From positions 62,001-126,000 of the forward strand of contig CAMQVH010000006.1 of NCBI GenBank assembly GCA_947038155.1: a DNA stretch of 64,000 nucleotides. Reading direction: 5' to 3'. This DNA comes from an uncultured Bacteroides sp. GTDB taxonomy: Bacteria; Bacteroidota; Bacteroidia; Bacteroidales; Bacteroidaceae. Positions 40,159 through 60,492 of this stretch are shown in pieces (the first letter of the stretch is position 1; every line of letters starts with the position of its first letter). Under the pieces are notes generated by a model. That model was not told the origin of the DNA. It did not search any database and was given only the letters and a program-made list of their open reading frames with translations. The translations under genes and the position numbers were made by a program.

Positions 40159-40230
40159 CTGGCTTTAGCGGAAAAACACTACTTTCGTAGCGTGAAAGAC
40201 TCGTATGTTTAATCCTTAAAATAACAAACC

Positions 40231-41430: not shown

Positions 41431-41439
41431 TTTCTACCG

Positions 41440-42411
41440 ATGAAAAGGGTGTTTTTTAAAGGAATGATGTTGTTGCTCCTGTCTGGTGTGGGAGCAACAT
41501 CGGTCTATTCACAACAACAGCAACGCAAAGACACGTTAGTCGTCACACGCGACGGGACAGGAGATTACCGCAATATTCAGGAAGCAGTGGAAGCTGTCCG
41601 CGCTTTTATGGACTACACGGTGACTATCTATATAAAGAACGGTACGTACAAAGAAAAACTGGTGATTCCCTCTTGGGTGAAGAACGTACAGTTGGTAGGC
41701 GAAGATGCAGAAAAGACGATTATCACGTACGATGACCATGCCAATATCAACAAAATGGGAACGTTCCGCACCTATACCGTCAAGGTGGAAGGCAATGACG
41801 TCACTTTCAGAGACTTGACGATTGAGAATAATGCGGCTCCTTTGGGGCAGGCGGTGGCTCTTCACACCGAAGGCGACCGGCTGATGTTCGTCAATTGCCG
41901 CTTTCTCGGTAATCAGGATACTGTCTATACAGGTTCGGAAGGAGACTGTCTTTTATTCACCAACTGCTATATAGAAGGTACTACCGACTTTATTTTCGGT
42001 CCTTCTACGGCACTTTTTGAATATTGCGAACTGCATAGCAAACGTGATTCGTATATCACCGCCGCTTCGACTCCTCAAAATGAAGAGTTTGGCTATGTCT
42101 TCAAAAACTGTAAACTGACCGCTGCTCCGGGAGTGAAAAAGGTATATCTAGGTCGCCCTTGGCGTCCGTACGCCGCTACGGTGTTTATCAATTGTGAGTT
42201 TGGCGGCCATATCCGCCCCGAAGGATGGCATAACTGGAAGAATCCGGAGAATGAAAAGACAGCCCGTTATGCGGAATTTGGAAATACAGGCGAAGGTGCA
42301 GGTACATCGGGACGTGTGACATGGGGGAAACAACTCACAAAAAAGGAAGCATTGAGGTACACTCCGGAGAATATCTTTAAAGAAAGCAGTAACTGGTATC
42401 CCTATAAGTAG
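41440..42411 (+). CDS. Pectinesterase (CE8)
   Basis: 'VTRDGTGDYRNIQEAVEAV', 'NCRFLGNQDTVYT', 'YIEGTTDFIFGPSTALFE', 'YLGRPWRPYAATVFINC'. Confidence 0.93.
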   Translation: MKRVFFKGMMLLLLSGVGATSVYSQQQQRKDTLVVTRDGTGDYRNIQEAVEAVRAFMDYTVTIYIKNGTYKEKLVIPSWVKNVQLVGEDAEKTIITYDDHANINKMGTFRTYTVKVEGNDVTFRDLTIENNAAPLGQAVALHTEGDRLMFVNCRFLGNQDTVYTGSEGDCLLFTNCYIEGTTDFIFGPSTALFEYCELHSKRDSYITAASTPQNEEFGYVFKNCKLTAAPGVKKVYLGRPWRPYAATVFINCEFGGHIRPEGWHNWKNPENEKTARYAEFGNTGEGAGTSGRVTWGKQLTKKEALRYTPENIFKESSNWYPYK

Positions 42412-42453
42412 AAACATTAGCGCTTCTGACAGGCGCTACGATACGAAATGTCT

Positions 42454-42559
42454 GTTTCTGGTCTTGAAACCATTTGTTTCATCGCTTGCGACTGTTGTTT
42501 CCATTAATTGAAACTAGAGTTTCTTCAGCAGGAAACAAAATGTTTCATGTCATTGAACA
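42454..42559. repeat. Second ~22-bp-period dyad array (GTTTC-N6/8-GAAAC-like units)
   Basis: Units begin at 42454, 42476 (degenerate), 42497, 42519, 42542. Confidence 0.75.
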
Positions 42560-42648
42560 CTTTGTTCCGATAAGGATGAGCAAACTTGGATACGAGAGAA
42601 ACGTAGCTTCCGGTAGCTTCTGGAAATAAAGGAATAAAGAAGGTTGGG

Positions 42649-42692
42649 AAGCGGTGATAGGTGATAGGTTGAAAAATAACCTATCACCGCTT
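42649..42692. repeat. Inverted repeat with alternative registers, GGTGATAGGT-based
   Basis: AAGCGGTGATAGG ... CCTATCACCGCTT (13-bp perfect) overlapping GGTGATAGGTT-gaaaaat-AACCTATCACC; another GGTGATAGGT follows at ~42726. Confidence 0.75.
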
Positions 42693-42791
42693 GAAATGCC
42701 GATGAATAGGGCGTTTGATGGATGCCGGTGATAGGTGAAAGAGAAAAATGATTTTTTATTATAGAGTATAGCATAAAGAAAATGAAAGAAA

Positions 42792-44531
42792 ATGAAAGAA
42801 AATAGAAGTAAATTAGTACTGTTGTTGGCAGTTACCTTTGTTCTCTGCTCTGCATTTCGCGCGGACAAGCCTGTCGTAACTATCTTTATGATAGGGGATT
42901 CGACTATGGCTAACAAGAAGTTGGACGGCGGAAATCCCGAACGTGGCTGGGGAATGGTACTTCCCGGATTTTTTTCCGAGGACATAAAGATAGACAATCA
43001 TGCTGCCAACGGACGCAGTTCCAAGAGTTTTATCTCCGAAGGACGTTGGGCAAAAGTCATCTCCAAAGTGAAGAAAGGTGATTATGTCTTTATCCAGTTC
43101 GGACATAATGATGAAAAGGCGGATTCTACCCGACACACAGAGCCGGGAACTACTTTCGATGACAATCTCCGCCGATATGTAAACGAAACCCGCGCGAAAG
43201 GCGGCATCCCCGTATTGTTCAATTCCATCGTCCGCCGTAACTTCGTCCAACCGCAGGATGCCTCTATCACTAAGGATATCCGCCGGACACCAGGGGAAAA
43301 AGAGCAACCCAAAGAAGGGACGGTCTTGTTCGATACGCATGGAGCTTATTTGGATTCTCCACGCAATGTAGCGAAAGAGCTCGGAGTCGTATTTATTGAT
43401 ATGAACAAAATCACTCACGACCTGGTGCAAGAGCTCGGACCGGTAGAATCGAAAAAGCTTTTTATGTTTGTCGCCCCCAATCAGATTCCCGCTTTTCCGA
43501 AAGGCCGTGAAGACAATACCCATTTGAATGTCTATGGAGCGCGAACCATCGCAGGCCTGGCTGTCGATGCCATCGGCAGGGAAATTCCCGAATTGGCAAA
43601 ATATATCCGTCATTACGATTATGTGGTAGCCCAAGACGGTAGCGGTGATTTCTTTACCGTGCAGGAAGCTATCAATGCTGTCCCCGACTTCCGTAAAAAT
43701 ACCCGTACCACGATTCTCGTTCGCAAAGGCACTTACAAAGAAAAGATAATCATCCCTGAAAGTAAGATTAATATCTCCTTGATAGGAGAGGAGGGCGCAG
43801 TATTGACTAATGACGATTTCGCCAATAAGAAAAACGTATTCGGTGAAAATATGGGAACTTCCGGTTCGTCCGGTTGTTATGTCTATGCCCCGGACTTCTA
43901 TGCGGAGAATATCACATTCGAGAACTCATCCGGTCCCGTAGGGCAAGCTGTCGCCTGCTTTGTCTCTGCCGACCGTGCATTTTTCAAGAATTGCCGCTTC
44001 TTAGGCTTCCAGGATACCCTCTACACTTACGGCAAACAAAGCCGCCAATATTACGAAGACTGCTACATCGAAGGAACGGTAGATTTTATCTTCGGCTGGT
44101 CTACGGCTGTGTTCAATCGCTGCCATATTCACAGCAAGCGTGACGGCTATGTGACCGCTCCTTCTACCGACAAAGGAAAAAAATACGGTTATGTCTTTTA
44201 CGACTGCAAGCTCACCGCAGAACCGGAAGCTACAAAAGTGTATCTTTCCCGTCCCTGGCGTCCGTATGCGCAAGCTGTATTCATCCGTTGCGAACTTGGC
44301 AGACATATTCTTCCCGTTGGCTGGAACAACTGGGGTAAGAAGGAAAACGAGAAAACTGCCTTTTATGCCGAATATGAGAGCCGTGGCGAAGGAGCCAATC
44401 CAAAAGCGCGTGCCGCTTTCTCCCGTCAGTTGAAGAACCTGAAGGGATATGAGATAAAAACAGTCCTGGCAGGAGGTGATGATTGGAATCCGGTAGAAGA
44501 GGGAAATAAGTTGTTGGATGTAAGACGTTGA
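42792..44531 (+). CDS. Two-domain pectin esterase: CE12 SGNH acetylesterase + CE8 pectin methylesterase
   Basis: N-terminal SGNH 'FMIGDSTMANK', 'GRSSKSFISEGRW', 'FIQFGHNDEK', 'DNTHLNVYGA'; C-terminal CE8 'VVAQDGSGDFFTVQEAINAV', 'YLSRPWRPYAQAVFIRCE'. Confidence 0.93.
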   Translation: MKENRSKLVLLLAVTFVLCSAFRADKPVVTIFMIGDSTMANKKLDGGNPERGWGMVLPGFFSEDIKIDNHAANGRSSKSFISEGRWAKVISKVKKGDYVFIQFGHNDEKADSTRHTEPGTTFDDNLRRYVNETRAKGGIPVLFNSIVRRNFVQPQDASITKDIRRTPGEKEQPKEGTVLFDTHGAYLDSPRNVAKELGVVFIDMNKITHDLVQELGPVESKKLFMFVAPNQIPAFPKGREDNTHLNVYGARTIAGLAVDAIGREIPELAKYIRHYDYVVAQDGSGDFFTVQEAINAVPDFRKNTRTTILVRKGTYKEKIIIPESKINISLIGEEGAVLTNDDFANKKNVFGENMGTSGSSGCYVYAPDFYAENITFENSSGPVGQAVACFVSADRAFFKNCRFLGFQDTLYTYGKQSRQYYEDCYIEGTVDFIFGWSTAVFNRCHIHSKRDGYVTAPSTDKGKKYGYVFYDCKLTAEPEATKVYLSRPWRPYAQAVFIRCELGRHILPVGWNNWGKKENEKTAFYAEYESRGEGANPKARAAFSRQLKNLKGYEIKTVLAGGDDWNPVEEGNKLLDVRR

Positions 44532-44621: not shown

Positions 44622-44635
44622 AGGAGATATGACGG

Positions 44636-44950
44636 ATGAGAAGAAACGAGATTGTAGATATGATACGCAACACCCTTCGGCAGGTAGCCCCCAACTCCCA
44701 AACCATACTTTATGGCTCGGAAGCCCGCGGGGATGCACGTCCGGATAGTGACATTGATTTGCTTATTTTGGTGGATGAACCACAACTCACTCCCGAACGT
44801 GAGCAGGAAATAATTCGTCCACTTTATGAATTGGAAGTAAAATTCGGGGTTATTATCAGTCCTATGATTATGCTACGTAAGTTATGGGAAAATCGTCCCT
44901 TTCAGACACCTTTTTCTCTAAATGTAATGAATGAGGGGATTATATTATGA
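44636..44950 (+). CDS. MNT-type nucleotidyltransferase (antitoxin-like)
   Basis: 'ILYGSEARGDARPDSDIDLLIL' = GSx10DxD NTase motif; 4-nt overlap with HEPN gene. Confidence 0.9.
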   Translation: MRRNEIVDMIRNTLRQVAPNSQTILYGSEARGDARPDSDIDLLILVDEPQLTPEREQEIIRPLYELEVKFGVIISPMIMLRKLWENRPFQTPFSLNVMNEGIIL

Positions 44951-45351
44951 AACAGGAATTATCTCCCGAACATCGAATAGCCTTGGTGCAATATCGTTTT
45001 GAACGAGCCTATCTGACACTAAAAGAAGCCGACTATATGCGTAAGGGAGACTTCTTTAATGCAGCTATTAATCGTCTTTATTATGCCTGCTTTTATGCAG
45101 CTACCGGCTTGTTGATATCCAAAGGTATTGATGCCGGTACTCACAACGGAGTGAAAACAATGCTGTCTTATCATTTTGTACGTACTAATCTACTGAGTCT
45201 GGAGCATGGTAGTACATACAGTAATTTGTTTGACAAACGCCATAGTGGAGACTATGAAGATTTCGCTTACTGTGATGCGGCGTTGGTAGATTATCTTTTA
45301 CCTCGTGCGGAAGCTTTTATTAAAGCCGTAGAGATTCTGGCACAAGAATAA
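44947..45351 (+). CDS. HEPN domain-containing protein (toxin-like partner)
   Basis: 'RFERAYLTLKEADYMRKGDFFNAAINRLYYACFYAATGLL' HEPN helix; paired with MNT. Confidence 0.88.
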   Translation: MKQELSPEHRIALVQYRFERAYLTLKEADYMRKGDFFNAAINRLYYACFYAATGLLISKGIDAGTHNGVKTMLSYHFVRTNLLSLEHGSTYSNLFDKRHSGDYEDFAYCDAALVDYLLPRAEAFIKAVEILAQE

Positions 45352-45412: not shown

Positions 45413-48400
45413 ATGATGAAAAAAATCTTATATCTAGCTATTTCGAGTTTACTTGTCTGGACAGCGGTACAGGCGCAGACAAACAGCTTCTTCACCCACT
45501 ATTCTACTGAAGATGGATTATCCCAAAATACAGTGATGAACATCTTGCAGGACCATAAAGATAATCTCTGGTTTGCCACCTGGGACGGCATCAACCGTTT
45601 CAACGGATACACATTTAAGACATACAAGGCACGTCAGGGAAATTATATCAGCCTGACAAACAACCGGGTGGACCGCCTGTATGAAGATTGTTATGGTTTT
45701 ATTTGGCTATTAACCTATGATAACCGTGTCCATCGTTTCGACCCGAAGACCGAGACTTTCGAACAGGTTCCGGCTGCCGGCGAAGAGGGGAGTACCTATT
45801 ATGTGGGAGCTATCAAAGTATTGTCGAATGGTACCGTTTGGTTATTGACCGAGAGTGACGGTGCTATCCGTGTCAGCACCAATCCGGAGAAAGGGCATCA
45901 ACTGGATATTGATATATACTCCCGGAAGTCGGGATTGTTTCCCGCCACTCACGTATATGAGGTCTATGAGGATAAGGCCGGCAATGACTGGCTGCTGACC
46001 GATAACGGACTGGGCATGATACCGCCCGGTGAGAAAACACCGGTTTCTTATTTTGTCGATACCAAAGGAAAGACCGGCGGGATGAACCAGGCTTTTTATG
46101 CGGTTCAGGAGCGTGACGAGGATATTTGTTTTACCTCGGACAAAGGAAGAGTCTGGCGTTATCAGAAAAGTAACGGTGAGTTTCATTTGCTCGAGATTCC
46201 TACCAAAGCCAATATTACCGCTATCTATGCCGAACAGGAAGAGGCAGTCATGGCGACAGACACAGACGGCTTCTTCACCTATGACATGAAAACCGGAGAG
46301 AGTGTGCACTACTCTCATGTGACTTGCAAAGACTTGCCCGATAAACCGATTCTTTCTATGTATGTGGACCATGCTTCGGAGATTTGGTTCGAACAGGAAG
46401 AACTAGGTGTGGTGGTTCATTTCAACCTTGCCACCGGAGTGGTGAAGCGGGAACAGATGAAAGTGGAATATAGCAATGCCGACCGTTCCCGTCCTGCTTT
46501 TCACATTCACGAAGATGTGAACGGATATTTGTGGGTGCATCCGTATGGCGGCGGTTTCTCTTATTTCGACCGCGAACGGAACTGCCTCGTTCCTTTTTAT
46601 GATGATTTGGGCAGCCATAACTGGCGTTTCTCTAATAAGATTCATATTGCTTTCTCGGACAAACAGGGTAATCTGTGGCTTTGTACCCATTCAAAGGGAT
46701 TGGAAAAAGTCACTTTCCGCAATGTCCCTTTCTCCATGCTGACCCCGGTTCCTCACGAATATGAATCGATAAGCAATGAGACACGGGCTATCTGTGAAGA
46801 TAAACTGGGTAATCTGTGGGTAGGGCTGAAAGATGGAATCGTGCGTATTTATGATTCCAACCGTCAGTATAAAGGTTATTTGACGGAGAGCGGAACGATA
46901 GCTCTTTCCGGTGCTCCGATGCAGGGGACTGCTTACTTTATTATGCAGGATTCAAACGGCGTAATGTGGATTGCTACGAAAGGTAACGGACTGGTTTCCG
47001 CACGTCAGACTTCACCGACCGGCATGTCGTATCGGCTGACACGCTACCGGCACAATAAGGATGATATGTATAGCCTGAGCGACAACAATGTATATTGTGT
47101 GTACGAAGACCGTCACGGACGCATCTGGGCGGCTACCTTTGGCGGCGGTATCAATTACATTACTCAAAATCTGGAAGGGAAGACGCTCTTCATCAATCAC
47201 CGCAATAATCTGAAAGGGTATCCCATTGACTTATGCTATCGAACCCGCTTTATCACTTCCGATAACAACGGGCGTATATGGGTGGGCACGACAACAGGGG
47301 CTATCGCGTTCGACGGGGATTTCAAGAAGCCGGAAGATATACGGTTTCATCATTTCTCGCGTGTACCTAATGATACGAACAGCTTGAGCAACAACGATGT
47401 GCACTGGATTATCCCTACTAAAAAGAAAGAACTTTATCTGGCTACTTTCGGCGGCGGACTGAATAAACTGTTGTCTATCGACAAAGACGGTCACGGAGAG
47501 TTTAAGTCTTACTCGGTGCTCGACGGGCTTTCTTCGGATGTGTTGCTCTCCATTCGCGAAGACCATAAGCAGAACCTTTGGATTAGCACAGAGAACGGCA
47601 TCTGTAAATTCATCCCTTCCGAAGAGCGTTTTGAAAATTATGACGAACGGAGTATCAGTTTCCGGGTTCGTTTCAGTGAGGCGGCTTCTGTATTGACTTC
47701 CGAAGGGAATGTGATGTTCGGCACCAGTAACGGGGTATTTATGTTCAATCCGGACTCGATACGGAAAAGCAGTTATGTGCCGCCGATTGTTTTCGGCAAG
47801 TTGATGGTGAATAATGAGGACGTCACTCCGGGAAAAGCATCTATACTGAAAGTAGATTTGGATGATACGGAAAAACTGGTGCTTTCGCATGACGAGAATA
47901 TTTTCTCTGTCCAGTATGCGGCACTTGATTACACGAATCCGCAGAATATACAGTATGCCTATATTCTCGATGGATTTGAGAAGCAGTGGACGTTGGCGGA
48001 TAAACAGCGGAGTGTGACTTATACCAATCTACCGAAGGGAAATTATGTATTCCGCGTCCGGTCTACCAATAGCGACGGGGCGTGGGTGGAGAACGAGCGC
48101 ATGCTGGATATTGTTATTCTTCCCTCTTTCTGGGAGACTCCGGTGGCATATGTGCTTTATGTATTATTTATACTGATTATCATTCTTGTGGCTGTTTATA
48201 TCCTGTTCACTATTTACCGGCTGAAGCATGAAGTGTCCGTCGAACAGCAGATTTCGGACATAAAGCTGCGTTTCTTTACCAATATTTCCCATGAGCTCCG
48301 TACACCGCTTACGTTGATAGCGGGTCCTGTGGAGCAAGTGTTGAAGAATGATAAGTTGCCGGAGGATGCCCGTGAGCAATTGGTGGTGGTAGAACGGAAT

Positions 48401-49972
48401 ACCAACCGTATGCTTCGTCTTGTCAACCAGATTCTGGACTTCCGTAAGATTCAGAACAAGAAGATGAAGATGCAGGTGCAGCGTGTGGATGTCGTACCGT
48501 TTGTACGCAAGGTGATGGATAACTTCGAAGCCGTTGCCGAGGAGCACCGGATTGATTTCCTGTTTGAGACGGAGAAGCAGCACCTTTACCTTTGGGTGGA
48601 TGTGGATAAGTTGGAAAAGATTGTGTTTAATCTGCTTTCCAATGCTTTCAAATACACGCCAAACGGGAAAATGATTACAGTTTTTATTCGAGAAGATGAG
48701 AATACTGTTTCTATCGGTGTGCAGGACCAAGGTATCGGTATTGCCGAGAATAAGAAGAAATCGCTGTTTGTCCGTTTTGAGAATCTGGTGGATAAGAATC
48801 TTTTCAATCAGGCTAGCACAGGAATCGGACTTTCACTGGTGAAGGAGCTTGTGGAGATGCACAAGGCAACTATTTCCGTCGATAGCCATTTGGGAGAAGG
48901 AAGTTGTTTCAAGGTTGATTTCCTGAAAGGGAAAGGGCATTATGATGAGGAAGTCGAATTTATCCTTGAGGATGCGGAAACTCCCGTAAGGATGGGGCAG
49001 GTGGTGGATATTGCCAATGCATCGCTCCAGTCTGAAACTTTGGTGGCAGCAGACGGTAGAGGAGTTGAGGAATCACCTTCGGAGAAAGAAACGTCAGTGG
49101 AAGATAATTCCAAAGAACTGATGTTGCTGGTTGAGGATAATCAGGAATTGCGTGAGTTCCTGCGTAGTATATTTACTCCGATGTACAGGGTGGTGGAAGC
49201 TGCCGATGGTATGGAAGGTTGGAACAAGGCATTGAAGTATTTGCCGGATATTGTTATCAGTGATGTGATGATGCCCGAAAAAGACGGTATCAAGATGACC
49301 CGGGAACTGCGTGCGGATATGACGACTAGCCATATACCTATTATCCTGCTTACCGCCAAGACTACTATCGAAAGTAAATTGGAAGGGCTGGAGTATGGTG
49401 CGGATGATTATATCACGAAGCCTTTCAGCGCTACGTATCTGCAAGCCCGTGTGGAAAATCTGCTGATGCAGCGCAAGAAGCTGCAGAGTTTCTACCGCGA
49501 TAGCCTGATGCATATCAACATGTCTGCTGTCCCCGAAAATTCGCCTGTACCGGCAGAGGTTGTGTCAGGGGAAGCAAACGGGGTTGAATCGGGGCAGGGA
49601 GCGCAACCTCAGCCTCAACCTGCTGTTCCCGATATGTCTCCCAACGACCGTAAGTTTATGGATACACTGGTGGAGCTGATGGAGCGAAATATGGATAATG
49701 GTGACTTGGTAGTAGATGATTTGGTACGCGAGCTGGCTGTCAGCCGTTCGGTATTCTTTAAGAAACTGAAAACGCTTACCGGACTGGCGCCTATCGAGTT
49801 TATCAAGGAAATCCGTATTAAGCGTGCCACTCAACTGATTGAAACCGGAGAGTTTAATATGACGCAGATTTCGTATATGGTCGGTATTAATGACCCGCGT
49901 TATTTCAGCAAATGCTTCAAGGCGCAGGTGGGGATGACACCGACGGAGTATAAAGAGAAGGTAGGCAGGTAG
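45413..49972 (+). CDS. Hybrid two-component system regulator (HTCS): Reg_prop/Y_Y_Y sensor, HisKA/HATPase, REC, AraC HTH
   Basis: 'FFTHYSTEDGLSQNTVMNILQDHKDNLWFATWDGINRFNG', 'ISHELRTPLTLIAGPVEQVL', 'LLVEDNQELREFLRSIF', 'DVMMPEKDGIKM', 'MTQISYMVGINDPRYFSKCFKAQVGMTPTEYKE'. Confidence 0.96.
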   Translation: MMKKILYLAISSLLVWTAVQAQTNSFFTHYSTEDGLSQNTVMNILQDHKDNLWFATWDGINRFNGYTFKTYKARQGNYISLTNNRVDRLYEDCYGFIWLLTYDNRVHRFDPKTETFEQVPAAGEEGSTYYVGAIKVLSNGTVWLLTESDGAIRVSTNPEKGHQLDIDIYSRKSGLFPATHVYEVYEDKAGNDWLLTDNGLGMIPPGEKTPVSYFVDTKGKTGGMNQAFYAVQERDEDICFTSDKGRVWRYQKSNGEFHLLEIPTKANITAIYAEQEEAVMATDTDGFFTYDMKTGESVHYSHVTCKDLPDKPILSMYVDHASEIWFEQEELGVVVHFNLATGVVKREQMKVEYSNADRSRPAFHIHEDVNGYLWVHPYGGGFSYFDRERNCLVPFYDDLGSHNWRFSNKIHIAFSDKQGNLWLCTHSKGLEKVTFRNVPFSMLTPVPHEYESISNETRAICEDKLGNLWVGLKDGIVRIYDSNRQYKGYLTESGTIALSGAPMQGTAYFIMQDSNGVMWIATKGNGLVSARQTSPTGMSYRLTRYRHNKDDMYSLSDNNVYCVYEDRHGRIWAATFGGGINYITQNLEGKTLFINHRNNLKGYPIDLCYRTRFITSDNNGRIWVGTTTGAIAFDGDFKKPEDIRFHHFSRVPNDTNSLSNNDVHWIIPTKKKELYLATFGGGLNKLLSIDKDGHGEFKSYSVLDGLSSDVLLSIREDHKQNLWISTENGICKFIPSEERFENYDERSISFRVRFSEAASVLTSEGNVMFGTSNGVFMFNPDSIRKSSYVPPIVFGKLMVNNEDVTPGKASILKVDLDDTEKLVLSHDENIFSVQYAALDYTNPQNIQYAYILDGFEKQWTLADKQRSVTYTNLPKGNYVFRVRSTNSDGAWVENERMLDIVILPSFWETPVAYVLYVLFILIIILVAVYILFTIYRLKHEVSVEQQISDIKLRFFTNISHELRTPLTLIAGPVEQVLKNDKLPEDAREQLVVVERNTNRMLRLVNQILDFRKIQNKKMKMQVQRVDVVPFVRKVMDNFEAVAEEHRIDFLFETEKQHLYLWVDVDKLEKIVFNLLSNAFKYTPNGKMITVFIREDENTVSIGVQDQGIGIAENKKKSLFVRFENLVDKNLFNQASTGIGLSLVKELVEMHKATISVDSHLGEGSCFKVDFLKGKGHYDEEVEFILEDAETPVRMGQVVDIANASLQSETLVAADGRGVEESPSEKETSVEDNSKELMLLVEDNQELREFLRSIFTPMYRVVEAADGMEGWNKALKYLPDIVISDVMMPEKDGIKMTRELRADMTTSHIPIILLTAKTTIESKLEGLEYGADDYITKPFSATYLQARVENLLMQRKKLQSFYRDSLMHINMSAVPENSPVPAEVVSGEANGVESGQGAQPQPQPAVPDMSPNDRKFMDTLVELMERNMDNGDLVVDDLVRELAVSRSVFFKKLKTLTGLAPIEFIKEIRIKRATQLIETGEFNMTQISYMVGINDPRYFSKCFKAQVGMTPTEYKEKVGR

Positions 49973-49991: not shown

Positions 49992-51533
49992 CTATTTTTT
50001 AGGAAACAGGTGATTGACCAGGCTGTTCATATATACTTCAAGATTCGTATATTCCGGACTTAAAGTATATTTGGCTCCGTCTGAAGGGTCATTAGGATTC
50101 AGATTGTGCATCTTTTCCCATTCGTCAAGAATTCCGTCACCGTCAGTATCTTGTTGTGACGAACGGGTTTCTACATATTCATTCCATCCTTCTGCGTCGG
50201 CAGGAGTGTCTATCAGACCATACATTCCTCCATTGGAACCTTTGTACGTGTAGTTGCCTTCTTTCACTTCCTGCACAATTCGTGCGTCTATCTTGTCCGG
50301 AATGTTAGAGGCACCGGCGTATTTTAAAACAGCCTGATAAGCTTCGTTAGCAGGTTGGACAAAAGAATAATCTACTAAAATATTAAAACGGGAAGAAACC
50401 AGCAACTTTTCAGCCGGAACTTTATATGCGTTGTCTTTTACATAGAAAGCTGTAGGAGAAGTATTGTTATTATTGGCATTTTCAATTTCTTTTAATTGGC
50501 TGGCTGATAAATCATTCCGGGAAGAATCGTATATATTTCCGTTCAGGTAAAATCTTCCATAGGTTCCTGCTTTCTGATTATTTGTTCCATCGTCTACATA
50601 TGCTGTGAAAATGCGGCAATGTACTTTTTCTGCTACGTTTACAGGACCAGGTTTGTAGTAGTTGTTGACAATATTGTATGAGCCGCCTTGTGCTCCATAG
50701 GCTCCTTCGTTTGTCCAATTGTAGATGACATTATTGCATACATCTACTTTTTCCATATCTTCACGGTTGGAATAGCGGCTTCCACAAAGTCGTGGAGTGC
50801 GGTTGCTGTGATGGGCTATCAGATTGTGATGGAAAGTAGCCGGGCTACCTCCCCATATTCCACCATACCCGTGTGCTCCTTTCTCATGAATGGAGTTGGT
50901 AAGACTTTCGCTGACGATACACCATTGGAGAGTGAAATTGGTATTTCCATAAAATGACGCACATTCATCGGTACTCCAACTCATGGAACAATGATCTATG
51001 ATAATGTTTTGCTTGCCAGGATAGCTTGCCTGGAATCCATTCATTGCGTCATCTCCTTTTTGTTGGATGTCTGCCCCCATTCGTGAACGAATGAAACGGA
51101 TAATGACATTGTTTGCAGAAACATTAAGTGTATAGTTCTTTAGGCAGATCCCTGTACCGGGTGCGGTTTGTCCGGCAATAGTGATGTTGTCGTTTTTAAT
51201 AGATAATTTCTTTTTTAGCGGTATGACTCCTCCCACAGCAAATACAATTGTTCTTGTTCCGCTTTTTTCTATCGCCCAGCGTAGTGTTCCTTCCGAGCCA
51301 TCATCTGTGAGTTTGGTAACTGTATATACAGTACCACCTGCACCACCGGTTGTGTATTTGCCTGCTCCTTCGGCTCCTGGGAAAGCCGGGGTGTATTGCC
51401 GGTCGGGAAGTTGGGTTTCAGATTGGTTGTTGTCCGGTTCCTGTTCGGACGGAAGAGGAGACGCTATGGGATCGGTGTTTGAACAAGCTATAATAAGAAA
51501 ACTTAGAATAATTGTTGATAATATTCTGTTCAT
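49992..51533 (-). CDS. Pectate lyase family 1 (PL1)-like lipoprotein
   Basis: Lipobox '..FLIIACSNTD'; 'AFPGAEGAGKYTTGGAGGTVYTVTKLTDDGSEGTLRWAIE', 'IIIDHCSMSWSTDECASFYGN'. Confidence 0.88.
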   Translation of the reverse strand: MNRILSTIILSFLIIACSNTDPIASPLPSEQEPDNNQSETQLPDRQYTPAFPGAEGAGKYTTGGAGGTVYTVTKLTDDGSEGTLRWAIEKSGTRTIVFAVGGVIPLKKKLSIKNDNITIAGQTAPGTGICLKNYTLNVSANNVIIRFIRSRMGADIQQKGDDAMNGFQASYPGKQNIIIDHCSMSWSTDECASFYGNTNFTLQWCIVSESLTNSIHEKGAHGYGGIWGGSPATFHHNLIAHHSNRTPRLCGSRYSNREDMEKVDVCNNVIYNWTNEGAYGAQGGSYNIVNNYYKPGPVNVAEKVHCRIFTAYVDDGTNNQKAGTYGRFYLNGNIYDSSRNDLSASQLKEIENANNNNTSPTAFYVKDNAYKVPAEKLLVSSRFNILVDYSFVQPANEAYQAVLKYAGASNIPDKIDARIVQEVKEGNYTYKGSNGGMYGLIDTPADAEGWNEYVETRSSQQDTDGDGILDEWEKMHNLNPNDPSDGAKYTLSPEYTNLEVYMNSLVNHLFPKK

Positions 51534-51561
51534 GGTATGATTATAATGAGAGTACTGTAAA

Positions 51562-51606
51562 ATGAAAAGAGAATGTGGTGAATTTGTAAACACATCCTCT
51601 TTTCAT
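51562..51606. terminator. Hairpin between the two PL1 genes
   Basis: ATGAAAAGAGAATGTG ... CACATCCTCTTTTCAT (15/16 paired). Confidence 0.6.
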
Positions 51607-51660
51607 ATTTTTCAGACGGAAGAACCTCTTCCTGTCTATGTTAATAGGGTAGTATTAATG

Positions 51661-53274
51661 TTATTCAACCACATTACCACCTTCTGTGCATTGGTCCATA
51701 ATATCCTTGACCAAACTATTCATGTACATTTCGAGGTTGGAATACTTGCCGTGTATATCTATAGTGCGCATATTACCGTCTAAAGCATAATTAGGGTCCA
51801 GACCATGAACGAGTTCCCATTCATCAGGAATGCCATCGCCATCGGTGTCGGTAATGTTACGTTTGGTATCGACAGGCAATACTGGGTAAGGATCATCTCC
51901 CCAAAATTGGCGTGGATCATTGATGTAACCCGGTTTGTTGTCTGTAGGATTTTGGTTACTGTCTGTAGTTGATGTATATGTAGCCTCGCCCTTGTTGACA
52001 TCATCTACAATCAGTTTGTCAACAGCATCACGATAGTTGCAGGCTCCTACATACGATAATACTTTAGTATAAGCTACTTCTGCACTATGGGTAGTCACAC
52101 CGTTAGCTTTGGTAACAGGAGTTTCTTTTCTGATTTTATCCTTGTTGTTATCCCATGAAAAGTCGTTACTTTTGTCTGATTGTTGTTGGGCGTAGACGCC
52201 ATTCGTCCAATTGTCAGTTGTAACTTCCTCGTTACCGTTCATAAAATTACCGTCAATAAAAAATGTTCCCCATATTCCTTTGAAAGGTTCAAAGTCTGCT
52301 CCATTGTCATAGTCTTTTGCATAGATACCTACTTTGGCAATGCGGTATTTTACTTTGTCGGATGCCTTTGCCGTTGCGGGTCCCGGTTTGTAGTAGTTAT
52401 TTACAATATTTGCGTTTTGTGCTTCACCACCGTAGCATCCTTCACCTGCCCAATTATAGAATACGTTGTTGCGGATATCTACTTTCTCATCTAATTTCAA
52501 TGTGGTAGGACGTGGACCAAGGCGTGGAACACGGCTTTCGCAATGGGCAATCATATTATGATGGTAAGTAGCAAAATGTCCACCCCAGTTTCCACCGAAT
52601 CCATGTGTTTTCACTTTGTCGCCTTCTTGTTTGCTGGGAACTACCCGCAGAGCTTGTGAGGCTAAACACCATTGTACAGTAGAATTCACCATACCATATA
52701 CCGATAAACATTCATCTGTGCACCAACTGATAGAACAGTGGTCGATAATGACATTTTCTTTGTCACTGCCTCCTAAACCATCACAATCAATGTCGACATT
52801 TCCCGGGCGAAAACGGATAAAGCGTATAATAACATTATTTGAGTTTATTATAAATGGATAACCTGCGATACAAATACCCCCCGGAGATGTTTGTCCGGCA
52901 ATCGTCAAATAATCGTTCGTTGTTTTTAGTTCGCTATTTAGATGGATGGTGCCAGCTACATCGAAGACAATTGTTCTTTTGTCTTTCTGCGAAACAGCCC
53001 AACGGAATGTGCCTTTCGTTCCGTCATCTGTCAATTTGGTTACGTGATAAACCGAACCGTCACGTCCGCCTACTGTATTTTTTCCATGTCCTTCTGCACC
53101 AGGGAAAGCTAATAATTCACCGTAATCCAACTGGACAATAGTACCTTGTTCTACTTCATTAGGAAGTAGTGGTAATGTATCATTTGTCATTTTAGGATCT
53201 ATGTCAGCGCAAGACGTTATTAAAAATGCGCCTATTGCCAAACTTTCACAAATTGAAAATATATTATTTTTCAT
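51661..53274 (-). CDS. Pectate lyase family 1 (PL1)-like lipoprotein (second copy)
   Basis: Lipobox 'LITSCADID'; 'AFPGAEGHGKNTVGGRDGSVYHVTKLTDDGTKGTFRWAVSQ', 'VIIDHCSISWCTDECLSVYG'. Confidence 0.88.
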   Translation of the reverse strand: MKNNIFSICESLAIGAFLITSCADIDPKMTNDTLPLLPNEVEQGTIVQLDYGELLAFPGAEGHGKNTVGGRDGSVYHVTKLTDDGTKGTFRWAVSQKDKRTIVFDVAGTIHLNSELKTTNDYLTIAGQTSPGGICIAGYPFIINSNNVIIRFIRFRPGNVDIDCDGLGGSDKENVIIDHCSISWCTDECLSVYGMVNSTVQWCLASQALRVVPSKQEGDKVKTHGFGGNWGGHFATYHHNMIAHCESRVPRLGPRPTTLKLDEKVDIRNNVFYNWAGEGCYGGEAQNANIVNNYYKPGPATAKASDKVKYRIAKVGIYAKDYDNGADFEPFKGIWGTFFIDGNFMNGNEEVTTDNWTNGVYAQQQSDKSNDFSWDNNKDKIRKETPVTKANGVTTHSAEVAYTKVLSYVGACNYRDAVDKLIVDDVNKGEATYTSTTDSNQNPTDNKPGYINDPRQFWGDDPYPVLPVDTKRNITDTDGDGIPDEWELVHGLDPNYALDGNMRTIDIHGKYSNLEMYMNSLVKDIMDQCTEGGNVVE

Positions 53275-53297
53275 GTTTTCTTAGATTAATTTGTTTA

Positions 53298-55115
53298 TTA
53301 TTTATTCCAACGGGGATCACCGTATGCTTTGTATTTAGTGTCTTTCACTGTAAAGTCACCGTTTGCAGGATCGACAAACAGTTCTGTCGATGAAATGTCA
53401 AGAGATGTTCCCCAAGTATTTTTAGAACCGAACATACAATCATTGGTCGTGAAAGAATCACTGAATTTAACTGTCGGTCCCTCATATCCTTTAGTAGCCT
53501 CAGTCATACCTACAAGAGTATTTGTAATGGTGATAGAACCGGCTTTTACTTTGTTGGTATCAATTACAGTTTTTCCTTTGGCTAAGTTATAGAATGTACA
53601 ACGCTCAATAGTGATCTCTGGCGTTTGTAGTAATGTAAACATAGAGCCTGAAGATATTTGATTGACTGTTGTGTTAACCATGCTGATTTTTTCCAGTTCA
53701 ACTCCGCTTACTTTGGTATTCAAAATACCATAACTACCGATATTGGTGATAACGCAATTGTTAAAGGTGATTGTTCCGAATTTAGCAGCCGCCGCATTAG
53801 TTTGTGTACGGATGATACCACGGAAATCGGAAAGCTTTAAGCGGTTGGCGGTAAAATCGTTCAATTGGAATGAATTCTTAACATTTAGTAAATATCCGGC
53901 TGCTGTTTCATCCACGCAATCTATATTATAAAACTCTATCTTGTTCAACGATGCGCCTGTTGCCACTGTTAAATCACCTTTATCGGCTTTTGCATATTTT
54001 ACAGGTGTACCAGTACTGAAAATGGTTAATGATGTAACAGTTTCGGGAATAATAACTTCTTTAGTCAATGTTATGTTGGAGACGAGATTAAGAGCAATAT
54101 CACCACTTCCGTTTTCTATTGTACTTTCGAAAGCTTCAAATGTATCAACGTTTATAGTATTTTCCGGAGCTTCATATTCTGTTTCAAATGTTACATAACC
54201 GATAATTGCCCCATTCTTAATAACCGAGAACGTATAAGTAGTACTACCTTTCAAATTTGAAGCAGTGAATGTAGTAACCGAACCTGCCGGGAAAGCTTCT
54301 GCGCCATCTGCCGTCGGACTTTCACCCGGAATAAGCGTATATGCATCTGCGGCTTCTACCCATGAGAATGTAGCACTATTATGAGTGAGTTCATCTACTG
54401 TGACCTCAATCATTTCACCTTGTGCTGTTGTTACTTTAATAGTACCACGAATAATGTCGTTGTTCAGCAATTCAATGGTATATTCTGTAAGAGATGACAA
54501 ACCTTCAAAAAGGAATGAACAAGCCTCTTTGTCAGCTTCTTCCAAAATAAAGGTTTCTTCGTATGGAGCAGAGGCACTGTTTGAGCTGATGTGTAATGCT
54601 GTTACGTTACACCCTTCCATCCAAGAGACACGAATAGATTCCTTGGTGATATCTCCTGCATCCTCAGTCGGTATTTCCAATAATTGCTCTTTTGTGGTTT
54701 TAACGGATTTTTCTGCGTAAACCCAATAGGATTCCTTATTTGAACCTATTGCTTTGATACGGGCATAGTAGTTCGTTTCCGGAAGTAACTCCTTAACCGT
54801 TAACGGACTTGATATTTTTTCTCCATCATTGCCGAAAACTTGACTTCCGGCAGCTTCCCCCAATGCAATGTCATTTGACAATGGCTCGGTACTGATTTCT
54901 AATACATATCCTTGTGCGTCTTTTACGCCCTTCCATGTTATTTCGATTTGGGCAATCTCGTCATCAGCTGTCAGGCTGAAATCGCCTTGTGTCGGGCCGA
55001 ACAGTCGGTTGGCTTCTATAACCTCCCAATCATTGCCGTCAGTACATGATGTGGAGAGGAATATAGTCAGGAGTAAACAGGTTCCTGCGCTAATGATATA
55101 TTTTAAGTTTTTCAT
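53298..55115 (-). CDS. SusD-adjacent surface lipoprotein with Fn3-like and DUF4957/DUF5123-like domains (candidate glycan-binding protein)
   Basis: Lipobox 'IFLSTSCTDG'; Fn3-like repeats ('AQIEITWKGVKDAQGYVLEIS'); C-terminal beta-helix-like 'FNNCVITNIGSYGILNT...CTFYNLAKGKTVIDT'. Confidence 0.78.
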   Translation of the reverse strand: MKNLKYIISAGTCLLLTIFLSTSCTDGNDWEVIEANRLFGPTQGDFSLTADDEIAQIEITWKGVKDAQGYVLEISTEPLSNDIALGEAAGSQVFGNDGEKISSPLTVKELLPETNYYARIKAIGSNKESYWVYAEKSVKTTKEQLLEIPTEDAGDITKESIRVSWMEGCNVTALHISSNSASAPYEETFILEEADKEACSFLFEGLSSLTEYTIELLNNDIIRGTIKVTTAQGEMIEVTVDELTHNSATFSWVEAADAYTLIPGESPTADGAEAFPAGSVTTFTASNLKGSTTYTFSVIKNGAIIGYVTFETEYEAPENTINVDTFEAFESTIENGSGDIALNLVSNITLTKEVIIPETVTSLTIFSTGTPVKYAKADKGDLTVATGASLNKIEFYNIDCVDETAAGYLLNVKNSFQLNDFTANRLKLSDFRGIIRTQTNAAAAKFGTITFNNCVITNIGSYGILNTKVSGVELEKISMVNTTVNQISSGSMFTLLQTPEITIERCTFYNLAKGKTVIDTNKVKAGSITITNTLVGMTEATKGYEGPTVKFSDSFTTNDCMFGSKNTWGTSLDISSTELFVDPANGDFTVKDTKYKAYGDPRWNK

Positions 55116-55131
55116 ATGTTCTTTCCTTTTT

Positions 55132-57075
55132 TTAGTTATATCCATAGGAGTTTTTCAAAGTGCCGTTTGATGTAGATATGGTTCTTGAATAAAGCGGCAA
55201 CAGATAACGATTCTTTACCGGTGTATTCAACCCGCTACTGATAGAGGGCAGATTAGTATCTTTTTGTTTGGTGTCTATTTTACCAAAACTGTCTTTGTTG
55301 GCTTCGTAAGCTTTTGTATCTGCCGGTGTTTCATACCAGGTAATCGAAGACTGGTCGATTTCTTTATAAGCCTTATCACTGTTTTTCTTATAATTGAAGT
55401 AAATCTTTTGCGGCCACTTGGTTCCTGTTCCATCATCATTTCCGATGTGGGCTTCATAAGTTGATTTAAATTCATCAATCTTGTCACTTAACAGGTTCCA
55501 ACGAATCAAGTCGAATTTGCGGACTCCTTCACCTGCCAGTTCCCAGGCATTCTCCTGTACGATAGCTTCAAAGAAACCTTTATCAGCAATCAGTTGATTT
55601 AGTTTTGTTGCTGCTGCGTTCCGGTCGGTAAAGGCTCTTTGATGTACTTGCAGTAGAGCGTCATAAGCAGATAACGTACAATTCTTTCCGTCTAAATCTG
55701 TTCCGTATGCAGTCTGGGTTTTATGTAACTCGTTGACTACTTCTGCATACATTAATAGTACGTATGCATAACGCATCTTTACTACATTGATTCCAGAGCA
55801 GATTTTAGCTTTTTCATCACCGGCCAGCACCGCTTCCAACCAAGTTGGGTTACCTGCCATCTTACGATAATCCCATTTTCCACAGTAGATACCGAAAGGG
55901 GCATTTCCTAACATTGCTTCTGTGTATGAACTTTTGTTCTCTAATTGATAAGTGGCACAGGTTAAGTCACGGCGTGTGTCGTCTCTGTCAAAAGAATAAA
56001 AATAGGGAGCTGTCAGTTTCAGAGTACCGGTAGAATTTCCTTTCTTACCATAATCGGGAGTAGGACCATTTACGCGGAAACCTACAGTATATCCTAATTC
56101 CCCGCTTTTATTAATACCCATTGGAATCTCAAATAAATTTTCCGGTGTACTGGTTTGTAAATTTCCCACATTCATGTCCAGCCAATATTGCTCAGGAGTA
56201 CTTGTCAATGCATGTTTTCCACTATTGATAATGGTTGATAAGTGCTTTTCTGCCAATTCGTACATCTTCTTTCTGGTTTCATTGTCACAACGTTGCGTAG
56301 GATAGTTGTCATCCGAATTTTTTGTAGCAGTAATATAACCCTCTTTAGCAGACTCACGGATAAACCAGCCGGCACGTGTTAATGCTATATTGGCTAACAG
56401 ACCATGTGCATAACCGCGTGTGACATGTTCGGTTGTCTGTTCGCCGACCCAAGGCAGGTCAGGAATAGATTCTTCCAGATCCGCAATCAAGTTTTCCATA
56501 ATAACATCCCGATCTGTTTTTCCTAAATAAGCATTACTCAGGTCGGATTTGGAGATTTCTACTTTATAAGGTACGTCTCCAAACAAGCGGATCAAGTCTA
56601 GGTAAATCATTGCGCGTAATGTCTTGGCTTCTGCTCTGAAACGTAGCATGGTAGCTCTTGATTCATTTCCCTCTTCAATAAGGGAACTATTGTCCACTCC
56701 GTTTATTACTAAGTTGGCATCTTCTATTACTCCGTACATATTATTCCATACGGTTTCCAAATCTGCAAATCCGGGAGAAGCATTGTAATTGAACACACCA
56801 CGTTGATGAGTTGTGTTTTGAGCATCGCTCCCCAGTCCGTCTATTAATTCACAGTCGGTGTTTAGTCCGGCTTGAATAGGCATGAACTGAGAATAGGTTT
56901 TGTCTTGCGTCAGTCCGCCGTATACTTTATTCAACGTAAGTTCTGTGTAGTATTCGTTGTTGAATACCACTTTGTCGTTCATCTCAGAAGGAGATGACTG
57001 GTCAAGGAAATCGGAACATGCAGTCAAAGACAACAGTCCGGTAGCCAAAAATACAGATTTATATATATGTTTCAT
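55132..57075 (-). CDS. RagB/SusD family nutrient uptake outer membrane protein
   Basis: 'LTACSDFLDQSSPSEMND', 'AEAKTLRAMIYLDLIRLFGDVPY', C-terminal 'ENAWELAGEGVRKFDLIRWNLL'. Confidence 0.95.
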   Translation of the reverse strand: MKHIYKSVFLATGLLSLTACSDFLDQSSPSEMNDKVVFNNEYYTELTLNKVYGGLTQDKTYSQFMPIQAGLNTDCELIDGLGSDAQNTTHQRGVFNYNASPGFADLETVWNNMYGVIEDANLVINGVDNSSLIEEGNESRATMLRFRAEAKTLRAMIYLDLIRLFGDVPYKVEISKSDLSNAYLGKTDRDVIMENLIADLEESIPDLPWVGEQTTEHVTRGYAHGLLANIALTRAGWFIRESAKEGYITATKNSDDNYPTQRCDNETRKKMYELAEKHLSTIINSGKHALTSTPEQYWLDMNVGNLQTSTPENLFEIPMGINKSGELGYTVGFRVNGPTPDYGKKGNSTGTLKLTAPYFYSFDRDDTRRDLTCATYQLENKSSYTEAMLGNAPFGIYCGKWDYRKMAGNPTWLEAVLAGDEKAKICSGINVVKMRYAYVLLMYAEVVNELHKTQTAYGTDLDGKNCTLSAYDALLQVHQRAFTDRNAAATKLNQLIADKGFFEAIVQENAWELAGEGVRKFDLIRWNLLSDKIDEFKSTYEAHIGNDDGTGTKWPQKIYFNYKKNSDKAYKEIDQSSITWYETPADTKAYEANKDSFGKIDTKQKDTNLPSISSGLNTPVKNRYLLPLYSRTISTSNGTLKNSYGYN

Positions 57076-57096: not shown

Positions 57097-60000
57097 TTAG
57101 AAAGTTACGTTAATGCCACCAACAAATGTACGGCTCTTAGGATATGCTGCATAATCGATACCAGGGTTCATTGCATTTTTCTTGCTCATGGTGTCTACTT
57201 CCGGATCAGAACCGCTGTAGTTTGTCCAACAATACAAGTTGTATCCTGTCAGATATATTCTTACATTTTGCAGGAAAGCTTTCTTCACCCATGTTTTGGG
57301 TAATGTATAACCTATTGTTATATTGTTGATTCGTAGGAAAGAAGCATCTTCTACTGCATAATCGTATATTTGTGCCTGTGTCATTGAAGCTGGGTTGTAA
57401 ATTTGTGCGTTCCGGTTCAGCTCATTCAGACGTAATCCGGCAGTCATCATGTCACCATATGCTTCTTTCACGGCGGTGCTTTCTGCTGAAAGATTTAATC
57501 CGGTTGCAGGATCAATCCAAGAATAGCGATTGCCTAAAGCAAAATCATTATTCAGATTATACCCTTTCTTGCTTCCTGTCTGGAAAGACGACAAAAGCTT
57601 GGTACCGTTGAGAATCACATTTCCTACCGAATAGTTAAAGAAGAAATTGAAATCAAAGTTGCCGATATGACCGTCAAAACCGAATCCACCCATAACAGGA
57701 GCAATTGTGTTGCCCAAACGTTCTTTTACAGGTTGTCCGTCTTCGTCACATTTCAGCTTTAATCCACCGGGTTTATAAGAACCGCCTGTTACTGAAGCAC
57801 TGTTGTCTTTCAGACCGTCGCGTAATACCCAGTTTCCGCCTTTCCATACTAAATCTCCGTTTGGGTTAGTTTTCGGGTCATACACTGTATAGAAACCATT
57901 GGCGCGATACCCCCAAATTTCACCTAAGCGTCCACCTTCTTCTACCCGGAAAACTTCATATTTGGAAATATTGCTACCTGCCCATTTGTAATCTTGCCAC
58001 GGATTGTCAGTATTCAATTCATCGATACGGCTACGGTTGTAAGCGATGTTAAAGTTAAAGTTCAATCCAAATTTCTTTTGATCCACCAATACGGCATTGG
58101 CTGTAAATTCAATACCTTTATTCGATGTTTTGCCGAAGTTTTGGTATTGATAGGAATAGCCGGTACTTGATGGTACTTCAGCTTGCATCAGCAGATCTTT
58201 TGTTGTATTCCAATATACGTCTAAAGAGCCCGAGATACGATTGTTCCAGAACCCATAGTCGATACCAAAGTTACGAGTGACAGTTGTTTCCCACTTTAGA
58301 TTAGGATTATAAAGTGTGGTTGTATGTTGCAACATGTTAGCCATTGATTCACCGAAGAAAGGAGCACGTGCAGAGTTGTCCGACATAGAGAAAGTAGTAG
58401 CCAATAATCCTGAGTTGATACGGTTATTACCGGCAGTACCGAAACTTAAACGGACTTTTAGTGCGGAAAGCCAATCCTTAGCGTTTTCCATGAATGCTTC
58501 GTCAGACAGACGCCAAGCCAAAGCTGCAGAAGGGAACATTCCCCATTGGTTACCTTTGGCGAACTTGCTGGAACCATCGGCACGCATGGTAACCGTCAGC
58601 AAGTATTTGTCCATCATGGTGTAATTGACACGTCCGAAGAAAGAGAGCATGTTTTCTTTTGCACCGATGGTTGATTGTGTAGGCAATGAAGTACCTGCAC
58701 CCATATTTGCTTTCATATCGTCAAATCCCATTGATGTGGGGAAAGAAACAGAGACATTTTCTATAGAATTTTTCCAGCTGCTGCTTACTTCATGTCCAAT
58801 CAGAACATTCATGCGGTCACGACCACCGAAGAGTTTCTTGTTTTCGTAAGTTAATGTATTGGCATTTCTCCAGTTTTTGGAAGTCTCTCTCAATAAGAAG
58901 GCTTGCGGACGTCCGTTATATCCATACTTGGAGTTGGATACGGCATCTGTACCCCAATATTGTTCTGTATCATCATATCTCCATCCGTAACCGAATTCTG
59001 AACGGAATGTGAGGTTTTTGAAGGGTTTCCAATTTAGACCGATATTATAATTCTGGTTGAATGTCTTGCGGTTCTTTTCTGTTGCCAATAAGCGTTCTAG
59101 CGGTGTTGCGCTTGTTGCCGAGTTATTCTCTTCATCCTCCAGATCGCCGTTGCTTAAAGCGTCGACCGGTCGGAAAGTTATTGCATTTGCTACAATTGAG
59201 TTAGCGGCATTGCTTTCATTTGTATCTGCTCCACCGCTTAATCCTTCAATAGAAGAGTAACTGAAACGTGCATTGAAATCAAGCGTCATCCATTGGTTCA
59301 ACTCAGCATTGATTTTAGCATTTACATTATCTTTGTTGAAGCCGGAACCAAGCATGATACTTTTTTCTTCATTGTGAGCATAACTTACACTATATTTAAT
59401 CTGTTTGCTACCTCCGCTTACGTTTACATTATATTGTTGTTGGTTACCTGTACGTCCGAATATCTCGTCTTGTAAATCTTCTCCCGGGAAAGACTTCCAA
59501 AGATCCATATCTGCATAATTACCATAATTAGCAGTAGAACCAATTTCACGTTGATAAGCCACATAATCGTAAGGGCTTAAAACTTTAGTCATTTTAGCTA
59601 CTTTTTTGAAACCAAAGGAAGCGTTAAAATCTACTTGTGTCTTACCTTCCTTACCACTTTTGGTAGTGACAATAATAACACCGTTGGCACCGCGGGCACC
59701 GTAGATTGCAGTAGAAGATGCATCCTTCAGAACATCGATACTTTGAATCTCAGACGGAGCTATATCGCTAATGCTTGATACGGGAAATCCGTCCACGATA
59801 TAAAGTGGGGAATTGTCTTGTGATAAAGAACCGCCACCACGTACGCGAATCTTGACGTCTGCATCAGGAGAACCTTCTGTCGTTGTGATATTGACACCGG
59901 CAAGTTTTCCGGTCAGGGCTTCAGTTGCACTCGACACTGGTACCACTGCTAAATCTTTAGAATTTACTGATGCTACAGAACCTGTCAGGTCTCTTTTGTT

Positions 60001-60360
60001 AACTGTGCCATAGCCGATAACAACTACTTCATCCAATGCTTGTGAGTCATCTTGCATGGTTACATTAACAGATTTTCTTCCTTGAATAGCAATTTCTTGT
60101 GTTTTCATACCAATATATGAAATCACAAGCGTCTTTTTTCCGTCGACCTTGATAGAAAAGTTACCATCTAAGTCTGTAATCGTACCATTGGCCGTATTAC
60201 CTTTTTCTACAACAGAGGCTCCGATAATAGGTTCTCCGTTGGTGTCTTTCACGTTACCTGTTACGGTAATCGTTTGCGCAGATACGCTGAGCGATATTGC
60301 CGAAAATAGTATTAGCAATAAGGAGCGCATGTTTTTCACTTTGTTAGACATACTTTGCAT
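57097..60360 (-). CDS. SusC/RagA family TonB-linked outer membrane protein
   Basis: 'VTGNVKDTNGEPIIGASVVEKGN', 'VVVIGYGTVNKRDLTGSVASV', 'PLYIVDGFPV', 'IYGARGANGVIIVTTK'. Confidence 0.97.
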   Translation of the reverse strand: MQSMSNKVKNMRSLLLILFSAISLSVSAQTITVTGNVKDTNGEPIIGASVVEKGNTANGTITDLDGNFSIKVDGKKTLVISYIGMKTQEIAIQGRKSVNVTMQDDSQALDEVVVIGYGTVNKRDLTGSVASVNSKDLAVVPVSSATEALTGKLAGVNITTTEGSPDADVKIRVRGGGSLSQDNSPLYIVDGFPVSSISDIAPSEIQSIDVLKDASSTAIYGARGANGVIIVTTKSGKEGKTQVDFNASFGFKKVAKMTKVLSPYDYVAYQREIGSTANYGNYADMDLWKSFPGEDLQDEIFGRTGNQQQYNVNVSGGSKQIKYSVSYAHNEEKSIMLGSGFNKDNVNAKINAELNQWMTLDFNARFSYSSIEGLSGGADTNESNAANSIVANAITFRPVDALSNGDLEDEENNSATSATPLERLLATEKNRKTFNQNYNIGLNWKPFKNLTFRSEFGYGWRYDDTEQYWGTDAVSNSKYGYNGRPQAFLLRETSKNWRNANTLTYENKKLFGGRDRMNVLIGHEVSSSWKNSIENVSVSFPTSMGFDDMKANMGAGTSLPTQSTIGAKENMLSFFGRVNYTMMDKYLLTVTMRADGSSKFAKGNQWGMFPSAALAWRLSDEAFMENAKDWLSALKVRLSFGTAGNNRINSGLLATTFSMSDNSARAPFFGESMANMLQHTTTLYNPNLKWETTVTRNFGIDYGFWNNRISGSLDVYWNTTKDLLMQAEVPSSTGYSYQYQNFGKTSNKGIEFTANAVLVDQKKFGLNFNFNIAYNRSRIDELNTDNPWQDYKWAGSNISKYEVFRVEEGGRLGEIWGYRANGFYTVYDPKTNPNGDLVWKGGNWVLRDGLKDNSASVTGGSYKPGGLKLKCDEDGQPVKERLGNTIAPVMGGFGFDGHIGNFDFNFFFNYSVGNVILNGTKLLSSFQTGSKKGYNLNNDFALGNRYSWIDPATGLNLSAESTAVKEAYGDMMTAGLRLNELNRNAQIYNPASMTQAQIYDYAVEDASFLRINNITIGYTLPKTWVKKAFLQNVRIYLTGYNLYCWTNYSGSDPEVDTMSKKNAMNPGIDYAAYPKSRTFVGGINVTF

Positions 60361-60425: not shown

Positions 60426-60433
60426 CAAAAGTA
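60426..60433 (-). promoter_or_regulatory. -7 box of the susC operon
   Basis: Minus-strand TACTTTTG. Confidence 0.6.
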
Positions 60434-60454
60434 TGATAATATGAATGTAACCAT

Positions 60455-60492
60455 GTGCAATATTTGTTTTTCACCTAGTATTTTTTGTTTTT
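60455..60492 (-). promoter_or_regulatory. Candidate HTCS operator: two direct half-sites 21 bp apart upstream of susC
   Basis: Minus-strand AAAAACAAAAAATACTAGG (distal) and GAAAAACAAATATTGCAC (60455-60472, proximal); 21 bp to the -7 box. Confidence 0.55.

Follow-up and report, generated by a model that had tools for sequence, protein, structure and literature searches.

The window, by which we mean the whole 64,000-nucleotide stretch of uncultured Bacteroides sp. DNA that was analysed, carries a HTCS regulator gene flanked, as the sequence-only reading had placed it, by a susC-susD-lyase operon and a GH105-pectinesterase operon, with an MFS transporter gene further out. The genes are as follows.

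35816-37262, minus strand: MFS transporter, distantly like TIGR00893 (D-galactonate transporter), below the cut-off
40231-44531, plus strand: GH105 operon
40231-41430, plus strand: GH105/GH88-type unsaturated galacturonidase
41440-42411, plus strand: pectinesterase
42792-44531, plus strand: GDSL esterase-pectinesterase
45413-49972, plus strand: HTCS regulator, 1519 aa (Pfam scan)
57097-60360, minus strand: susC-like TonB-dependent transporter, first gene of the outer operon
49992-57075, minus strand: rest of the susC operon
55132-57075, minus strand: susD-like, susC operon
53298-55145, minus strand: DUF5123/fn3 surface protein, susC operon
51661-53274 and 49992-51593, minus strand: two beta-helix/pectate-lyase-like proteins, susC operon

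The regulator carries, in one chain, a Reg_prop propeller, a Y_Y_Y sensor, HisKA, HATPase and receiver domains and an AraC HTH, which makes it a member of the HTCS, and the Pfam scan confirmed that it ends in an AraC-type double HTH. The phospho-acceptor histidine and the receiver aspartate are intact, and a SHIP motif, which has been tied to inhibition of the DNA-binding domain (PMC11253607), lies at residue 1306. For the part comprising receiver and DNA-binding domain, the closest PDB entry was 12aw, another HTCS. The next HTCS matches in the window's assembly, which is 72% complete, are only about 33% identical, so this is the sole regulator of its own subfamily found there. Translation of the MFS gene was taken to start at the ATG near 37262 and not at the upstream TTG of the ORF finder; the product is a distant relative of the galactonate/hexuronate permeases and a putative sugar-acid transporter. 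Between the esterase and HTCS genes, two small ORFs (44633-45351) resemble, on inspection of the DNA, an MNT-type nucleotidyltransferase and HEPN pair (toxin-antitoxin-like).

The susC and GH105 promoters had been linked in the sequence-only reading by an 18-mer, GAAAAACAAATATTGCAC at 60455-60472 on the minus strand, which is identical to GAAAAACAAAAAATGCAC at 40120-40137 on the plus strand at 16 of 18 positions. The match and its coordinates are correct to the base, as are a second half-site, AAAAACAAAAAAT (60480-60492, minus strand), exactly 21 bp upstream of the proximal copy, and the 21 bp between the susC 18-mer and its -7 box. Pairs of this kind are common by chance: non-overlapping 18-mer pairs with a 16/18 match number 333 in the window, against about 136 (range 120-152) in Markov-1 random sequence of equal dinucleotide content. 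The match alone therefore proves nothing, and relatives were needed for testing. A relaxed pattern with up to 3 mismatches gave 2 matches, where 1.08 were expected.

The two 18-mers had been wrongly paired, the susC proximal half-site having been matched to the GH105 distal one, which is why they sit 21 bp and 42 bp, respectively, from their -7 boxes. The degenerate GH105 proximal half-site, 21 bp beyond the distal one, had been overlooked. The geometry proposed as common to the two promoters fails for the 18-mers as paired and holds once both half-sites are placed, since in either promoter exactly 20 bp then separate the operator end from the -7 box. The half-site consensus is AACAAAAAWTRCACA, A-rich and ending in TRCACA, in two copies 21 bp apart. 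The repeat is clearer in aligned GH105 promoters than in the window; that of L058, for example, reads ATCAAAAAATACACC, six bases, GCCAAAAAATGCACA. A third operator, which the earlier account did not contain, lies upstream of the MFS gene and is kept with equal spacing in four relatives (L039, L042, L044 and L045). The promoter features are listed below.

60454-60489, minus strand: susC operator AACAAAAAATACTAGGTGAAAAACAAATATTGCACA, 36 bp with a 21-bp direct repeat, conserved in orthologues and the best-scoring site in the window
60475-60489 and 60454-60468, minus strand: its distal and proximal half-sites
60426-60433, minus strand: susC -7 box TACTTTTG, 6/6 match to TAnnTTTG, starting 20 bp after the operator
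40124-40159, plus strand: GH105 operator AACAAAAAATGCACCTACTTGATTAAAAAATCCAAC, found by a susC-only model of other species and conserved in GH105 orthologues
40124-40138 and 40145-40159, plus strand: its distal half-site (within the 18-mer first noticed) and its degenerate proximal half-site ATTAAAAAATCCAAC
40180-40187, plus strand: GH105 -7 box TACTTTCG, 5/6 consensus positions, 20 bp after the operator
37326-37361, minus strand: third operator AACGAATAATACATGAATTCGACCAAATTTTACAAA, upstream of the MFS transporter gene, third-best window site with symmetric models
37298-37305, minus strand: weak MFS -7 box GACCTTTG, 5/6 consensus positions, 20 bp after the operator

For comparison, orthologous susC promoters were collected across the genus and GH105 promoters from 15 genomes. 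Both sets keep the operator. The 36-bp susC operator is 81-100% identical in relatives, against 28-38% for the 60-bp upstream flank, and its conservation reaches orthologues with 59-68% protein identity. In B. xylanisolvens XB1A, SusC protein identity is down to 62%, yet the 36-bp block matches that of the window at every base, with 38% identity over the upstream 60 bp and 60% over the downstream 20 bp; in more distant susC promoters the block is 81-89% and the flanks are 28-35% identical. The susC promoter block is thus a textbook phylogenetic footprint. Closer relatives include G009, with a susC identical to the window's and an HTCS protein 99% identical, and B. congonensis, whose susC is 99.8% identical.

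Cross-prediction was performed with models built from one promoter family each and without the window sequence, the susC set consisting of orthologues from other species. The symmetric susC-trained model scored the window's GH105 site at 28.0 bits and the MFS site at 23.5 (best random 14.2 in 30 random 64-kb sequences), and the symmetric GH105-trained model ranked the window's susC site second at 21.6 (best random 19.0). These scores are slightly optimistic and the comparison mildly circular, the half-site registers having been set by eye after viewing both families. A susC-only composite model with unequal halves placed the GH105 site only fourth in the window, at 12.2 and within the random range, which is consistent with the degenerate GH105 proximal half-site. 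The operator pattern alone was not enriched (15 and 19 matches versus 12 and 18 for the reversed control); separating real sites takes the model score together with a -7 box at 20 bp.

The -7 box had been left out of the scoring model. Across 54 non-redundant sites of the genus, at least 5/6 positions of TAnnTTTG, the Bacteroides sigma-ABfr -7 consensus (PMC7366714), were found exactly 20 bp downstream in 50, with a perfect box in 42. Of the four sites that depart from this, one has the box at 21 bp and another is an overlapping register of an array of three half-sites. In the window, the sigma-ABfr -7 element is matched at 6/6 positions for susC and 5/6 for GH105 and MFS. The TTTG expected at about -33 is missing, and the operator end occupies its place. 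The last four bases of the operator, at the -33 position, are CACA in 41/54 sites, and TTTG occurs nearby in only 5, so that the operator stands in for the -33 box.

A strict pattern of operator, 20 bp and TAnnTTTG occurred in 92 of 160 genus genomes, and its reversed control in none. The window's GH105 and MFS -7 boxes each miss one consensus position, and only the susC site of the window therefore enters this count. With the presence of the window-type HTCS called at E <= 1e-290, 88 genomes have both pattern and HTCS, 4 the pattern only, 8 the HTCS only and 60 neither (Fisher p = 5.5e-30, a value that overstates independence, the genomes being related and PULs inherited as units). The match in G014, one of the four pattern-only genomes, and some of the listed matches look unlike the operator. 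Co-occurrence of this kind does not by itself prove binding. Footprint, cross-prediction, fixed -7 spacing and HTCS co-occurrence together support the candidate-operator status first proposed for the shared motif.

When the window's assembly and G009, a near-identical relative that is 99% complete, were scanned by pattern, a high score combined with a -7 box at 20 bp was found at susC, GH105, MFS and a GH28 polygalacturonase only, the last adjoining fabI, with 20-bp spacing, in G009 only. All four sites fit homogalacturonan use. By gene order, the GH28 gene beside fabI may be the counterpart of BT4187, a distant regulon member. A model scan of the window gave no operator-like site above background upstream of the HTCS gene, so autoregulation through the motif is unsupported. 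In L059 (10327-10385), a 537-aa ORF is preceded by an array of three half-sites, in two overlapping registers 21-22 bp apart; the -7 box follows the downstream pair at 20 bp. The susC orthologues in L083/L004, L005, L086, L091 and L105, judged by eye, have a good proximal half-site and a -7 box at exactly 20 bp with the distal half-site weak or lost, which suggests that the proximal half-site may be the essential one.

The intergenic region between GH105 and a divergent EIIC-GAT-like/kduI operon also holds TTTGCGTGCACAAAA (40087-40101) and TTTCCGTGCACGAAAA (40109-40124), a pair of palindrome-like copies around GTGCAC at a spacing of 22 bp. They are kept in relatives together with that gene arrangement and absent from L060 and L070. 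In G000 and G009 the palindrome pattern is found in the GH105/kduI intergenic region only; where it matched elsewhere, in one relative (L138, L141), no sugar-acid genes adjoined. The palindromes are likely the operator of a LacI-type sugar-acid regulator. Upstream of kduI (38523-39929, minus strand) lies a lone EIIC-GAT (galactitol PTS permease-like) protein, which has no IIA or IIB part in its vicinity and probably carries a sugar acid or its unsaturated product independently of the PTS.

These palindromes offer a different account of the GH105 match, namely that it reflects the LacI-type operator of the divergent kduI operon. The GH105 18-mer shares its 5' end with the copy at 40109-40124, a near copy lies at 40087-40101, both being retained where the divergent transporter/kduI operon is present, and KdgR and UxaR are LacI-type sugar-acid regulators of the genus. 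This account is nevertheless very improbable, given that the GH105 promoters of L060 and L070 retain the direct repeat and the 20-bp spacing without the palindrome, and that susC promoters carry the repeat without any palindrome. We consider it just as improbable that A-rich promoter DNA (A-tract or UP-like) with no specific reader produced the resemblance by chance. The 18-mer is indeed A-rich, and 16/18 pairs are common in the window; against this stand conserved columns at non-A positions (T10, C12, CACA), the constant 21-bp repeat with its 20-bp distance to the -7 box in nearly all promoters, the empty reversed control and the scores of the family-trained models on sites that they had not been trained on.

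A specific reader other than the window HTCS, be it another HTCS paralogue, a stand-alone AraC protein or Crp, could control the same operons; we regard this as unlikely, though less so than the two preceding accounts. In B. thetaiotaomicron, the paralogues BT4111 and BT4124 were proposed to have a common motif, and a Crp site was predicted upstream of BT4112 (PMC3878776). The published Crp site is, however, a CRP-like palindrome and not a 21-bp direct repeat, the presence of the motif follows the window-type HTCS across the genus, and the low identity of the next HTCS in the incomplete window assembly also speaks against a paralogue. The reading that we prefer, with a rough probability of 0.92, is that the motif is the operator of the HTCS_Rgu-1-type homogalacturonan HTCS (45413-49972), which would jointly activate the susC, GH105 and MFS units through -33-less promoters.

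Ravcheev et al. 2013 predicted HTCS motifs to be direct repeats whose tandem sites are about 21 bp apart; for HTCS_Rgu-1 (BT4111/BT4124) the prediction was a direct repeat of two 12-bp sites separated by a 9-bp spacer, and a regulon of BT4108-23 plus the distant operon BT4187-85 (PMC3878776). Homogalacturonan induces this PUL, and a BT4111 mutant reached 11.6% of wild-type growth on homogalacturonan, a BT4124 mutant having no defect (Martens et al. 2011, PMC3243724). The layout of the BT4108-24 locus (PMC8002723) agrees in synteny with that of the window, and in a 2024 EMSA BT4124-RR bound the bt4114 susC promoter in vitro (PMC11253607).

The 21-bp period recurs in all three window sites and in relatives, and the operators lie upstream of homogalacturonan PUL operons flanking a BT4111-type HTCS. 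The window has in common with HTCS_Rgu-1 of B. thetaiotaomicron the direct repeat of 21-bp period, the homogalacturonan PUL type and the susC and GH105 operons, and a distant operon for pectin main-chain cleavage may be shared as well, to judge from the GH28 site in G009; the motifs were compared by repeat and spacer lengths and by regulon. The motif is an independent rediscovery of this described operator family in another species. It differs in the MFS sugar-acid transporter site and in the unvarying 20 bp between operator and -7 box, for neither of which a description was found in the main texts of open-access papers; both appear to be modest additions to the known motif. With BT4124-RR and bt4114 the window has in common an AraC-type HTCS output domain, the SHIP motif being present in the window HTCS, and the susC promoter of a homogalacturonan PUL. 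The species is another one, the window HTCS corresponds by synteny to BT4111 and not to BT4124, and the published EMSA is one without a mapped footprint.

At the araBAD promoter of E. coli, AraC occupies the I1-I2 direct-repeat half-sites, which are two helical turns apart and overlap the -35 box, for class-II-type activation. The direct repeat over two turns and a proximal half-site at or overlapping the upstream core promoter element are found in the window as well; its promoters differ in being of the sigma-ABfr type (-7/-33), and its activator in being a membrane phosphorelay protein. The sequence-only reading had invoked this classical AraC layout for the HTCS; we reject it as proof and keep it as an analogy.

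Judging from relatives, pectin oligosaccharides would bind the periplasmic propeller, whereupon the kinase would phosphorylate the receiver and the AraC-type DNA-binding domain would be freed from it. Binding of the operator by the window HTCS is likewise suggested by relatives; two DNA-binding domains would lie next to each other on the same helix face, one per half-site. Gene content and B. thetaiotaomicron point to homogalacturonan oligosaccharides as the inducer. The CACA of the proximal half-site lies at the position expected for the -33 TTTG box. Since the operator ends at the -33 place, 20 bp before TAnnTTTG, the bound HTCS is most likely a class-II-type activator that recruits sigma-ABfr RNA polymerase to a -33-less promoter, as geometry and the AraC analogy indicate. 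The susCD/lyase operon, the GH105/esterase operon and the inner-membrane sugar-acid transporter would then be switched on jointly.

Tentatively, and at somewhat less than even odds, the promoters of the pectin HTCS regulon may obey a rigid rule by which the operator stands in for the -33 box and exactly 20 bp must separate its end from the -7 box, phase and distance being strongly selected genus-wide; this rule may hold for HTCS generally. When 40 other HTCS neighbourhoods were analysed, 21-22 bp lags showed mild enrichment (Z <= 5 over 304 correlated cells), and the gaps were not sharply 20.

Gut Bacteroides control their use of plant fibre mainly through HTCS, few of whose operators have been mapped at base level. 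The 54 distinct sites with a fixed promoter distance across the genus provide an operator model of pectin use that is both precise and testable and that adds an inner-membrane transporter to the predicted regulon of the pectin HTCS. An operator in place of the -33 box suggests a simple mechanism, and if the 20-bp rule were general, HTCS operators could be read straight from promoter sequence.
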